50,365 nt of DNA from Candidatus Omnitrophota bacterium. Its GTDB lineage: Bacteria > Omnitrophota > Gorgyraeia > Zapsychrales > Aceulaceae. Location of the stretch: positions 1-50,365 of the forward strand of contig JAQUUP010000013.1 of the NCBI GenBank assembly GCA_028693815.1, read 5' to 3'. Of the stretch, positions 39,171 to 44,321 are shown piece after piece. Positions within the stretch are counted from its first letter, which is position 1; each line of letters starts with the position of its first letter. The notes under the pieces are model-generated. The model saw only the letters and a program-made list of their open reading frames with translations. It was not told where the DNA came from and did no database searches. A program made the position numbers and the translations under genes.

Positions 39171-39202
39171 CAGTAACCTTTAAAAAAGATTTTTAAAAGT
39201 TC

Positions 39203-39388
<186 letters not shown>

Positions 39389-39500: not shown

Positions 39501-39550
39501 TTAGACTTGACAGCTTATATCTTAAATGTTAGACTTGTCTAACATTTAAG
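39501..39550 (+). promoter_or_regulatory. promoter and dyad operator of the feo operon
   Basis: TTGACA (39507-39512), 17 bp, and TAGACT (39530-39535) form the promoter. The -10 lies inside a perfect dyad with 14-bp arms (39521-39534 and 39537-39550) around a central TT. The core TTAGACTTGTCTAA closely resembles DtxR/IdeR sites. A partial copy, TTAGACTTG, occurs at 39501-39509, 28 bp upstream. Binding would cover the -10, so repression is expected. The regulator gene that follows is the likely binder. Confidence 0.82.
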
Positions 39551-39568: not shown

Positions 39569-40048
39569 ATGATAGAAACTAAAAAAAGACAAGAAAACGT
39601 ATTAAGCTCAAGTATGGAAGATTATCTTGAGTGCATTTTTGTTCTTAAAGAAACAAAAAATGTTGTTCGCGTGTGTGATTTAACTCAGTTGATGAATGTT
39701 AAGACATCGAGCACAGCAAGTGCTTTAAATTTTCTTTCAAAAACCGGGTATGTGATTCATGAGCGTTATGGCTGTGTGCAGCTTACAGAACAAGGCGAAA
39801 AGTTGGCAAAGCTTATTTATCGCAGGCATAAGACGCTTATTCGTTTTATTGATGAAATTTTAGGGGTCAACAAAAAGATCGCGGCTCAAGATGCTTGTAA
39901 AATTGAACATGCGATCAGCGTTGATACGTTTGAAAGATTATCAAAGTTCTTAGAATTTATGGATGAGGGTCATCATGTCAAATGGCTCTCTGATTTTCGT
40001 CAATATTGTAACGACAATCAAAGTTTTAAAAGAAAAACAAAAGGATAG
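39569..40048 (+). CDS. DtxR/MntR-family metal-responsive regulator
   Basis: 159 residues. SSSMEDYLECIFVLKE, the winged helix (VCDLTQLMNVKTSSTASALNFLSKTGYV), LTEQGEKLAKLIYRRHKTLIRFI and CKIEHAISVDTFERLSKFLEF match the DNA-binding and metal-binding/dimer domains; no SH3 domain is attached. Cys and His in CKIEHAI are likely metal ligands. Metal-bound protein would repress its own operon through the dyad at 39521-39550. It is followed by the Fur-FeoA gene after 2 bases. Confidence 0.9.
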   Translation: MIETKKRQENVLSSSMEDYLECIFVLKETKNVVRVCDLTQLMNVKTSSTASALNFLSKTGYVIHERYGCVQLTEQGEKLAKLIYRRHKTLIRFIDEILGVNKKIAAQDACKIEHAISVDTFERLSKFLEFMDEGHHVKWLSDFRQYCNDNQSFKRKTKG

Positions 40049-40050
40049 CT

Positions 40051-40743
40051 ATGTTATACGGAGATTTTCATATTATTTCTAGAGAGGTACAGGATCATCT
40101 TTGCGATCTTTTGCATAATAAGGGGCGTATTGATAAAAATATTTGTCCTGATATTATTCGGGAATTTTCTTCATGTGAAGATCATGTGTCTGTTGAAGAT
40201 TTTTATAAAATTCTTCAAAATAAGGGAGTTGATATTGATAAATCAGATGTTGAGAAATCATTAAAATTATTTTCTGAGATAGGATTTGCTTCTGAACTTC
40301 AGTTTGAAGGAGAAAATTTTAAACGGTATGAGCAGTTGCATTCTGAAAATCACCATGATCATTTTGTTTGCGTAAAATGTAATAAAGTTATGGAGTTTAC
40401 AAGTGATCAGCTTGAATCGCTTCAGAATTCTTTAATTTTTCAGAAAGGATGCCGACCGTTATTTCATAAGCTAGAAGTTTATGGTGTTTGTGATCAATGC
40501 CAAAAGACAACTAATGAAATTGTTCCTATTACTCTTGTCTCTGAAAACCAAACTGTTCGCCTGGCAAAGATGCAAGGAGGCGCGGCTCTTCGTAAGCGTT
40601 TGATGGATTTGGGGCTTGTTCCTAATGGAGATTTTAAAATTATCAAAAATTCACATTTTGGACCAATTGTTTTAGAGCTTAAAGACGCGCGTATTGCGAT
40701 CGGTCGAGGCGAAGCAAAACAAATCTTGGTTTATAAACCTTAA
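40051..40743 (+). CDS. Fur-FeoA fusion protein
   Basis: 230 residues. Residues 5-155 resemble a Fur regulator: a divergent winged helix, then HSENHHDHFVCVKCNKVMEF and VYGVCDQC, with two CxxC zinc pairs and the His-rich metal site. Residues 165-230 are a FeoA SH3-like domain (VRLAKMQGGAALRKRLMDLGLVPNG and IAIGRGEAKQILV). FeoA normally is a free protein that assists FeoB. The fusion would link iron sensing directly to transport; I have not seen this architecture as a standard one. Start is ATG? TTATACGG context suggests ATG 40051, after AAAAGGAT. Confidence 0.85.
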   Translation: MLYGDFHIISREVQDHLCDLLHNKGRIDKNICPDIIREFSSCEDHVSVEDFYKILQNKGVDIDKSDVEKSLKLFSEIGFASELQFEGENFKRYEQLHSENHHDHFVCVKCNKVMEFTSDQLESLQNSLIFQKGCRPLFHKLEVYGVCDQCQKTTNEIVPITLVSENQTVRLAKMQGGAALRKRLMDLGLVPNGDFKIIKNSHFGPIVLELKDARIAIGRGEAKQILVYKP

Positions 40744-40748
40744 AGAAT

Positions 40749-43007
40749 ATGAAGAAAAAATCAATTATTGCTGTGGTTGGAAACCCAAATTGCGGCAAAA
40801 CTTCATTATTTAATATTCTAACAAAATCTAGGCGAAAAGTAGGCAATTGGCCAGGTGTCACAGTTTCGCGCGAAGAAGGAAGCTATACGTACAGAGGAAG
40901 GTTTGTTTTGGTTGTTGATCTTCCAGGTATTTATTCTTTGTCAGCGTCTTCTTTAGATGAGAAGATTGCTCGAGAATATATCCTTCATCAAAAACCAGAT
41001 TTGGTGGTCAATATTGTTGATGCGTCAAATCTTGAGCGTAATTTATATTTAACAATACAGCTTATTGAAATGCGTGTTCCTTGTGTTGTTATTTTAAATA
41101 AAATGGATATTGCGAAATCTTTGGGAATTCGCATTAAGCTTGAAGAGCTTTCAAGAAATTTAAATGTGCCGATTTCTTGTACGGTTGCTAGCAAAGATCA
41201 AGGTATTGACGATGCAAAGGATTTGATTGAAGATGCTTTAAATAAAAAATTAGTATCTAAGTCAAACATTTATTTTCCGAAGGAGATTGAGCAAGGCATA
41301 AAAGAGATCTCGTTATTTCTTAAAAATAACCCAGAGGATAAAAAAGATTTTGAAGGGAATTCCCGGTGGATAGCGACTAAGCTCTTGGAAGAAAAAGATT
41401 TTCTTAAAGAGACGCGCGTTAAAAATCCTTTGTTTGATATTCTTAATGATGTTCAGCAAAGATCTAAGGAAATCTTAGGGGAACAAGCCGATATTATTAT
41501 TGCCGATAGTCGCTATGGATTTATCAATTCTTTGTGTAAAAAAGTTGTTATTAAAAATAGGGTGGTGAGACGAGATATTTCCGATTTGATTGATAAATTT
41601 GCGCTGAATCGATATTTGGGTATTCCGATTTTTCTTTTAGCAATGTATTTAACATTTTGGATAACGATTAGTTTTGGAGGATGTTTTGTTGATTTTTTTG
41701 ATCTTTCATTTGGTGCGATTTTTGTAGATGGTTTTCGAAATATTTTGACACTTATTAATGCTCCAGAAATTCTTAAAGTATTTTTAGCCGATGGGCTGGG
41801 GGGAGGAATTCAAACGGTTGCGACATTTGTTCCGACAATATTTTTTATGTTCTTTTGTTTAGCAATTTTGGAAGATTCAGGATATATGGCGCGGGCTGCT
41901 TTTGTTATGGATGGGCTGATGCGTGCTATTGGGCTCCCAGGAAAAGCCTTTGTTTCGATGCTAATGGGTTTTGGATGTAATGTTCCTGCTATTATGTCGA
42001 CGAGAACATTGGAAAGTGTTCGTGATCGTACTTTAGCGGTTGTTATTAATCCTTTTATATCTTGTGGTGCAAGATTGCCTGTGTATGCAGTTTTTGCGGC
42101 TGCTTTTTTCCCTTCTAACGGAGGGTTGGTTATTTTTGCTCTGTATGTGATTGGAATTCTTTGTGCTATTATGACAGCTTTTTTGCTTAAAAATACTGTT
42201 TTAAAGGGAGACCCTTCCGCTTTTATTATGGAACTTCCTCCCTATCATAAGCCCACTCTGAAAGGCATCTTGGTGCATACATGGGAAAGGCTTAAGGGAT
42301 TTATTTTTAAAGCTGGAAAAGCGATCCTTTTTGTTGTTGTGCTTTTAAATCTTTTATATGCTTTTTCGGGAGGATCGAATTTAAGAGAGCAGGGGAGCGG
42401 GTCTGTTTTAAAGCAAGGAGGACAATTTGTGCTTCCGGTCTTTAAACCAATGGGAATAAGGCAGGAGAATTGGCCAGCTGTTATTGGAATTTTTACAGGA
42501 GTTTTTGCTAAAGAATCCGTTGTTGGCACGCTAGATTCATTGTATAGAAGAACTGAGAATAGAGAAGGTCTTGATGAAAATTTTAATTTTGGCTTGAGGA
42601 TAAAACAGGCATTTTTATCTGTTCCAGAAAATATAGAAAAATTAAACCTTCCATTTTCTTCTAAAGAAGACCGTGTTAATAATAATGAGATATCGGGAAG
42701 TTTTCGGTTTTCTTTGATTCAAAATTTTGATGGAAAAGTAGGGGCTTTTGCATATCTTTTGATGGTTCTTCTTTATATGCCTTGTATTGCAACAATTGCG
42801 GCAATTAATGCTGAGCTGAATTTAAAATGGATGATTTTTAGCATTCTTTATTCTTCTTTGCTGGGCTGGTCTGTCGCAGTCTTGTTTTATCAGACAGCTC
42901 GTTTTTATATGCATCCGATAGAATCATTGGGTTGGATTCTTTTTATTGGTATGATGCTTTTCTCGTGCTTTATTTTTATAAAAGATTACTTTAAGAAATA
43001 TTTATAA
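40749..43007 (+). CDS. feoB: ferrous iron transporter FeoB
   Basis: 752 residues. The N-terminal G domain has GNPNCGKTSLFN (G1), DLPGIYSL (G3) and NKMD (G4), followed by the helical GDI-like region. The membrane part holds the two Gate domains, with GFGCNVPAIMSTRTLES and NPFISCGARLPVYAVF, the Cys-containing motifs of the pore. It imports Fe2+ across the inner membrane. It starts 5 bases after the Fur-FeoA stop and is followed by a FeoC-like gene. Confidence 0.97.
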   Translation: MKKKSIIAVVGNPNCGKTSLFNILTKSRRKVGNWPGVTVSREEGSYTYRGRFVLVVDLPGIYSLSASSLDEKIAREYILHQKPDLVVNIVDASNLERNLYLTIQLIEMRVPCVVILNKMDIAKSLGIRIKLEELSRNLNVPISCTVASKDQGIDDAKDLIEDALNKKLVSKSNIYFPKEIEQGIKEISLFLKNNPEDKKDFEGNSRWIATKLLEEKDFLKETRVKNPLFDILNDVQQRSKEILGEQADIIIADSRYGFINSLCKKVVIKNRVVRRDISDLIDKFALNRYLGIPIFLLAMYLTFWITISFGGCFVDFFDLSFGAIFVDGFRNILTLINAPEILKVFLADGLGGGIQTVATFVPTIFFMFFCLAILEDSGYMARAAFVMDGLMRAIGLPGKAFVSMLMGFGCNVPAIMSTRTLESVRDRTLAVVINPFISCGARLPVYAVFAAAFFPSNGGLVIFALYVIGILCAIMTAFLLKNTVLKGDPSAFIMELPPYHKPTLKGILVHTWERLKGFIFKAGKAILFVVVLLNLLYAFSGGSNLREQGSGSVLKQGGQFVLPVFKPMGIRQENWPAVIGIFTGVFAKESVVGTLDSLYRRTENREGLDENFNFGLRIKQAFLSVPENIEKLNLPFSSKEDRVNNNEISGSFRFSLIQNFDGKVGAFAYLLMVLLYMPCIATIAAINAELNLKWMIFSILYSSLLGWSVAVLFYQTARFYMHPIESLGWILFIGMMLFSCFIFIKDYFKKYL

Positions 43008-43017
43008 TATTAAGAAT

Positions 43018-43242
43018 ATGCTTATTAAAATAAAAGAATTATTTGAGAAGCAAAAGATTTTATCCTTGGAAGAGCTTTCGACATATTTTCAAGTTGAGCC
43101 AACGGCTATGGAGAAAATGCTGGATATTTTAGTTGAGAAAGGATTTATCCAAAAGAAAGTCATTGAATGCAAAACAACATTATGTGCGGATTGTGCCCAA
43201 TCTTGTGGCTCAGCGAAGCTTGTTTTCTTTGAAAAGTTGTAA
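43018..43242 (+). CDS. FeoC-like protein
   Basis: 74 residues. A small winged helix (LEELSTYFQVEPTAMEKMLDILVEKGFI) is followed by a Cys-rich tail, CKTTLCADCAQSCG, with four Cys that could bind an Fe-S cluster or zinc. This is the usual layout of FeoC, and the gene lies 10 bases after feoB. Confidence 0.85.
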   Translation: MLIKIKELFEKQKILSLEELSTYFQVEPTAMEKMLDILVEKGFIQKKVIECKTTLCADCAQSCGSAKLVFFEKL

Positions 43243-43344: not shown

Positions 43345-44321
43345 ATGGAAAATCAAATGAAAATATCAGAAAATAAATGTGGTATTTTTCTTGCCCTTGT
43401 TGTTGGACTTGCGGCTTTTTTTCTTCAAGAAATTACTTTGAACCCTCTATTGGATCCTCTTTTTGTTGCTCTTTTATTTGGCATTTTTATCAATTCCTTT
43501 TTTCGCATTCCTAAGCAATGCTTTTCCGGCATTGATCGTGCCCCGACTTTATTTATTCCGATTGGAGTTGTTCTGTACGGGTGCGTTAATCTAAATTTTA
43601 AAACATTTGCATTTATTAAGTTTGACTTTATTTTTTTGATTCTATTTGTTTTTATAATTTACATTATTTCTGTACTTTTTTATCTTCCATTTTAAGGCTT
43701 AAGGAAAAAGTGGGGTATCTCTTGACGGCTGGCTCTGCTATTTGTGGCGCTTCTGCGGTTGTCATTGCCTCGAAAGCTATCGATGCTGATCCGGATGAAG
43801 TTTCTGTTAGTTTGGTTCCGATTTTTATTTCTGGAATGATTGGTTTGTTTGTTATTTTGCCGCTAGTTTCTTTATGGCTTAAAATGTCAGATGTCGATTA
43901 TGGTGTTCTTTCTGGCAGTGTTTTACAATTTACTGGCTTTGTTAAAGTTGCTGTTCGAGATTTTCCAGACTATATAAAATTGTTAGCTATTTCGGTTAAG
44001 GCGATTCGATATTCAGGATTATTATTTTTAATTCCGTTATTTGCAAGTTTTTCTAAAGGGAGACTTTATGTTCCTTGGTATCTGTGGGGGTTTTTGTTAG
44101 GAGGCCTGATCTTTACATTTTTTCCTATTGTTGAGCCTCTTCGTCCAGTGTTAAAAATTATTTTGACATTATTTTGGAGCGTTGCGATGGCGGCGATTGG
44201 GTTAAGCGCGAGTTTTAAAAGTGTATTTTCTAGGCAGGGAATGAAAGCATTCGCTGTAAGCTTGCTTTCTTTTTTAATTGTTGTTGGTGTTTTTTTATTG
44301 GGAGCGTATTTTAGCGTCTGA
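43345..44321 (+). pseudogene. YeiH-family membrane protein split by a frameshift
   Basis: Two open frames, 43345-43695 (116 codons) and 43710-44321, together give a YeiH-type (UPF0324) protein of about 325 residues: LDPLFVALLFGIFI and PIGVVLYG in the first part, YLLTAGSAICGASAVVIAS and LSASF in the second. The first frame stops at TAA 43693-43695; one missing base in the TTTT run at 43690-43693 would restore P-F-L-R-L-K-E-K-V-G-Y in a continuous frame. It may be a true mutation or a sequence error. YeiH is a putative sulfate exporter. Confidence 0.85.

Follow-up and report, generated by a model that had tools for sequence, protein, structure and literature searches.

FeoA domains have been described in several settings. 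A census of FeoA architectures covers stand-alone FeoA, FeoA repeats and FeoA–FeoB fusions, and leaves out of account FeoA that is linked to DtxR or to another protein (PMC8980893). The regulator PgMntR belongs to the latter kind, with twin FeoA domains at its C-terminus (PMC4805248). In Bacteroides fragilis, FeoA stabilises GTP-bound FeoB (PMC8980893). As for the Fur family, the structures of Magnetospirillum MgFur bound to DNA show Lys15, Thr17, Gln19 and Arg20 of loop L1 touching DNA, together with Thr54, Tyr56 and Arg57 from the region of the recognition helix; the substitution R57A abolished DNA binding, and K15A weakened it (PMC4506495).

The locus discussed here brings a Fur module and a FeoA domain together in one protein. 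It lies in a 50,365-nt stretch of a contig from a Candidatus Omnitrophota bacterium (the window), in which a gene on the plus strand (40051–40743; ATG start, zero internal stops) encodes a Fur–FeoA fusion of 230 residues. The gene is the second in an operon of the order dtxR/fur-feoA/feoB/feoC. Ahead of it, at a distance of 2 nt, is the plus-strand gene for a DtxR-family metal-dependent regulator of 159 residues (39569–40048; Pfam Fe_dep_repress, 2.7e-14, and Fe_dep_repr_C, 1.9e-18), in which Pfam finds no C-terminal FeoA/SH3-like domain and whose closest NCBIfam models, those of MntR, stay below threshold (92.7 bits against a cut-off of 138). After a gap of 5 nt follows the plus-strand gene for a 752-residue FeoB ferrous iron transporter (40749–43007; Pfam), the sole FeoB found in this genome; feoB is an open reading frame of its own from 40749, hence the FeoA domain is not fused to the FeoB G-domain. 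A further operon member, absent from an earlier note made on this DNA from its letters alone, encodes a 74-residue FeoC-like winged-helix protein that contains a cysteine cluster (43018–43242, plus strand; Pfam FeoC, 1.6e-12).

Two neighbours of the operon deserve a mention in their own right. On the minus strand, a gene divergent from the operon (39200–39373) specifies a small ferredoxin-like protein containing two CxxCxxCxxxCP clusters, and just past the operon a Cons_hypoth698 (YeiH-like) gene is spread over two open reading frames in different frames (43345–43695 and 43710–44321). The counterpart of the latter in another genome, G002, is a single 348-residue open reading frame, and the split gene in the window is either a recent pseudogene or a sequencing error.

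Both parts of the fusion are recognised by Pfam above cut-off – FUR at residues 35–144 (75.9 bits, cut-off 23.1, E 3.9e-21) and FeoA at residues 159–228 (53.3 bits, cut-off 23, E 3e-14) – and no DtxR domain is found in it. Its matches in the PDB include E. coli Fur (8j6w, E 1.8e-17) and a FeoA structure (3e19, E 2.2e-06), and the displayed Foldseek matches belong to the Fur family. The AlphaFold2 model (mean pLDDT 88.7, pTM 0.60) still predicts a winged-helix fold, mostly with pLDDT above 90. Read along the plus strand, the protein comprises a Fur-derived winged-helix domain with replaced DNA-contact residues (approximately residues 11–88; 40081–40314), including the recognition helix (residues 64–76; 40240–40278); a Fur metal-binding and dimerisation domain, delimited by Pfam and alignment (approximately residues 89–152; 40315–40506); and the Pfam-defined FeoA domain (40525–40734), the sole one found in the genome. 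The claim of the earlier note that a Fur-like regulator and a FeoA domain share one open reading frame therefore stands exactly as stated, and its placing of the fusion between a DtxR regulator and feoB is borne out by the two short gaps.

Comparison with the closest described systems shows familiar parts in an unfamiliar arrangement. The Fur part resembles established family members (MgFur, E. coli Fur) in its fold, its site-1, site-2 and zinc ligands and its sequence, but it lacks the DNA contacts in loop L1 and the recognition helix, has an acidic winged helix, carries a FeoA domain and sits in a DtxR-controlled operon. The FeoA part is 45–49% identical to stand-alone FeoA proteins encoded in DtxR–FeoA–FeoB–FeoC operons (L055, L058), which occupy the same slot next to an FeoB of the same clade, yet the window FeoA differs from these in carrying an N-terminal Fur module. 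Bacteroides fragilis FeoAB (PMC8980893) provides another likeness, as its FeoA is tethered to a Feo-related module, implying a docking or regulatory part; there, however, the partner is FeoB, and here it is a metal-sensor domain. DtxR/MntR proteins with a C-terminal FeoA-like domain, such as PgMntR (PMC4805248), share with the fusion the combination of a metal-sensing winged-helix protein and a C-terminal FeoA-like domain, but the fusion is built on a Fur scaffold, has lost its DNA contacts and contains its genome's only FeoA found. We found no description of a Fur–FeoA fusion in the literature searched (architecture databases fell outside that search), so the possibility of a common, already described architecture, which the earlier note had raised against its own proposal, has no support there. 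What emerges is a new combination of known domains, with evidence that its function has changed, that our searches did not find described; within those bounds we say ‘undescribed’ and not ‘unknown’ because the searches beyond the phylum were shallow and those of the literature did without architecture databases.

Profile and protein searches recovered the full-length fusion from six genomes of the phylum: the window's and, in order of identity to the window fusion, G002 (83%), G001 (60%), G166 (53%), G033 (45%) and G253 (40%). The samples searched overlapped, and consisted of 92 relatives, 384 genomes of the phylum, 384 of the class, 49 from the class of G166 and 81 of the order. G166 belongs to another class, and G253 to another family of the window's class. 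Besides that of the window, the copies in G002, G001, G166 and G253 are intact and full-length; the one in G033 has a frameshift inside its FeoA part, followed by a degraded feoB start. The G033 operon copy (L042:1-1200) looks decayed, and this genome has a second operon with the order dtxR-feoA-feoA-feoB (L057). Farther afield, a shallow scan of genome contigs beyond the phylum with a single-protein query returned partial matches to the Fur part only, no match in plasmids or phages reached 80% coverage of the fusion, and viral contigs gave no fusion match.

The Fur parts of the fusions group together in one clade (100/100), whose stem is long, at 1.58 changes per site. For the fused FeoA domains, the tree is compatible with one origin, at weak support (57/31), and in the FeoB tree the fusion-bearing operons are neither grouped nor separated with resolution. 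Between the window and G002 copies, dN/dS is approximately 0.10 overall and 0.06–0.11 in the winged helix, the metal domain and FeoA; purifying selection acts over the full length of the fusion. Given the copies in several genomes, the single origin of the Fur part and the low dN/dS, the fusion is functional, rare and patchily distributed, and not an error.

It is in the winged helix that the fusions part company with other Fur proteins. The positions corresponding to MgFur K15, T17, Q19, R20, T54, Y56 and R57 are occupied in the window protein by Ile27, Lys29, Ile31, Cys32, Asp66, Glu68 and Lys69. Such replacement extends nearly throughout the six fusions – the exceptions being a Thr at the T17 position in G033 and an Arg at the K15 position in G166 – and the replacing residues often differ from one fusion to another. 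In 13 canonical Furs of the phylum, by contrast, the DNA-contact residues or close equivalents are kept nearly without exception. Of 57 other Furs, 53 have the motif [TS][VIL][YFH]R, which all six fusions lack; the two other Fur-family proteins of the window genome have TVYR and TVYS. Likewise, the net charge of the winged-helix part ranges from -3 to -13 in the fusions, as against 0 to +7 in the 13 canonical Furs. Mean pairwise identity among the fusions is 32% in the recognition helix and 64% in the metal domain, compared with 64% and 58%, respectively, among canonical Furs of the phylum. The divergence of the winged helix that the earlier note had remarked upon is real, and stronger than it said.

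The regulatory metal sites present the opposite picture. Their eight ligands (sites 1 and 2: E94, H101, H102, D103, H104, E122 and H139, along with H45 from the winged-helix part) are invariant in the alignment of all six fusions, and so are the structural zinc cysteines C107/C110 and C147/C150, the CxxC pairs that the earlier note had picked out. The fusion is accordingly predicted, from sequence, to bind metal and to dimerise. With these ligands invariant while the MgFur-type contacts are replaced and divergent and the domain is net acidic, the loss of Fur-type DNA contacts is well supported, and a Fur-type mode of DNA binding by this part is very unlikely. It had been proposed beforehand that this part may be an allosteric sensor rather than a DNA binder: the half of the proposal that concerns DNA agrees with the lost contacts and the invariant ligands, and the allosteric half is something we infer. 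The winged helix nonetheless does something, as its fold is predicted with high confidence and it is under purifying selection.

Some further observations concern the same family. Cys32 (40144–40146), which stands in place of Arg20, is shared by five of the six fusions, with Ser in G166; it could be a redox residue or an extra metal ligand. In three genomes of the collection (G013, G004 and G021), a shortened Fur-family protein is encoded beside a Fur gene (L018:1883-2203, L021:261-614 and L023:337-675). These proteins consist of the metal/dimer domain only, with HHNH and CxxC kept and no recognisable winged helix; they form one clade (100/100) and are possibly heterodimer partners or inhibitors of Fur.

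Transcription of the operon is explained by DtxR and its own predicted operator. A putative sigma-70-like promoter upstream of dtxR (39507–39535, plus strand) comprises TTGACA (39507–39512), a 17-nt spacer and TAGACT (39530–39535), and the layout TTGACA-N17-TAG[AG]CT recurs upstream of dtxR in G002 and G001. Overlapping the -10 element is a palindromic operator, CTTAAATGTTAGACTTGTCTAACATTTAAG (39521–39550), with the core TGTTAGACTTGTCTAACA at 39527–39544; palindromes also precede dtxR in G002, G001, G253, G166 and G032. The pattern TGTTAGNNNNNNCTAACA has a single exact match in the window, namely this operator, and one copy each, located upstream of dtxR, in the whole genomes of the window organism (G000), G001, G002, G253, G166 and G032, with none in G003. 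Across the phylum the pattern is not specific genome-wide (34 of 384 genomes, a reversed control being similar), and more than half of 30 fetched loci with the pattern have a dtxR gene just downstream. As the same palindrome also heads, elsewhere in the phylum, dtxR-feoA-feoB operons that lack the fusion, the operator goes with DtxR and not with the Fur part, and there is no need to invoke the fusion as its regulator. A classical Fur box has no match in the window at up to three mismatches.

Nine genomes were searched for FeoA and FeoB domains. In the window genome, G001, G002, G253 and G166, the outcome was one FeoA domain apiece, that of the fusion, and one FeoB. The fusion gene adjoins feoB in the window, G001, G002 and G253, and dtxR and the fusion gene are adjacent in four genomes. 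In the close operon relatives of G032 and G057 (dtxR-feoA-feoB-feoC), an ordinary feoA occupies the fusion's slot, and their FeoBs share a clade (100/100) with the fusion-associated ones. This comparative evidence points to the fusion serving as the cell's FeoA, and its being the only FeoA found in five genomes with one FeoB each favours an action on FeoB. Co-location with feo genes taken by itself proves little, because several canonical fur genes also neighbour feoA or feoB.

G166 departs from this arrangement: its feo operon is dtxR-feoB-feoC, without feoA, and its fusion gene is on a different contig, 20 nt downstream of a VIT1-family gene. No other observation speaks more clearly for a supply of FeoA in trans by the fusion, and the same arrangement is the main caution against regarding FeoB as its sole partner; coupling in G166 would have to be in trans or via the VIT protein. 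The product of the VIT1-family gene (L087:2130-3973) has an additional N-terminal region of some 155 residues, which is possibly ferritin-like.

The best overall explanation, to which we assign a probability of roughly 0.58, is that the fusion is a Fur-derived metal sensor acting on FeoB through FeoA, after translation. The alternatives have to be weighed against the same evidence. The fusion might still be a transcriptional regulator, its altered helix reading another DNA sequence and its FeoA domain tuning it as the SH3-like domain tunes DtxR/IdeR. The predicted integrity of the winged-helix fold, the purifying selection acting on it, the occurrence of FeoA-like domains C-terminal to DtxR-type regulators such as PgMntR and the want of one in the adjoining DtxR would all suit such a role. 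However, the helix is acidic and varies more between the fusions than any other part, the reverse of canonical Furs; the sole upstream operator seen also heads dtxR in fusion-less relatives, and the window has no Fur-box match; and a FeoA withdrawn from FeoB would leave these genomes without any, all of which makes a regulator of new specificity quite improbable. No better than unlikely, too, is a passive role for the Fur part, which would store or chaperone metal or serve as a dimerising scaffold and would not regulate transport: it might accept the Fe2+ that exits FeoB (in G166, hand it on to VIT1) or bring two FeoB molecules together. In favour of this, the metal ligands and the dimer domain are all kept, and the proximity of the G166 fusion gene to a VIT1 gene would suit general iron handling. 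Yet both Fur metal sites are retained, including H45 of the winged helix, which suggests that the metal-driven domain movement of Fur has been kept too, and a chaperone would not need it.

There is a slimmer chance that the fusion is a co-regulator contacting DtxR or FeoC, perhaps by tethering DtxR to FeoB or through competition for metal: dtxR adjoins the fusion in four genomes, but DtxR and its operator are also paired where feoA is ordinary, and the fusion of G166 is located elsewhere. As for an artefact – a frameshift, misassembly or decaying pseudogene that joined two genes, the first two of which the earlier note had also considered – the frameshifted G033 copy with its degraded feoB start is the one item in its favour, and it is excluded for practical purposes by purifying selection throughout and by the five full-length copies that stand intact in independently assembled genomes.

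A sensor acting on FeoB through FeoA could have arisen and may work as follows. In a DtxR-controlled dtxR-feoA-feoB-feoC operon, feoA would have been joined in frame to a fur gene, and the fused Fur part would then have lost its Fur-type DNA contacts while retaining the regulatory metal sites, the zinc site and the dimer domain. The product would now be the cell's FeoA, its SH3-like domain docking on the cytosolic G-domain region of FeoB. Binding or release of iron by the Fur dimer would alter the action of FeoA on FeoB – its GTP state, assembly or gating – and cytosolic Fe2+ would thereby adjust the importer post-translationally, in the simplest case by feedback inhibition, with transcription left to the DtxR repressor at its own operator. 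The earlier note had suggested a physical coupling of iron sensing to FeoB; such binding, the control of FeoB by metal and the direction of regulation are all parts of this scheme that we infer, and feedback inhibition is the likeliest sign. The most specific version, in which Fur has become an allosteric, non-DNA-binding subunit of FeoB that reads cytosolic Fe2+ and switches the GTP cycle via FeoA for post-translational feedback, is one we advance tentatively, at a little below even odds.

The fusion bears on the job of FeoA and on a possible post-translational control of FeoB transport. With the only FeoA found in the genome joined to a metal sensor without DNA contacts, iron-controlled FeoA action becomes a concrete, testable idea; the arrangement points to a possible direct tuning of the importer protein by cellular iron, and not via gene expression. 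If true, it would clearly exemplify a Fur-family protein that has given up DNA regulation but retained metal sensing.
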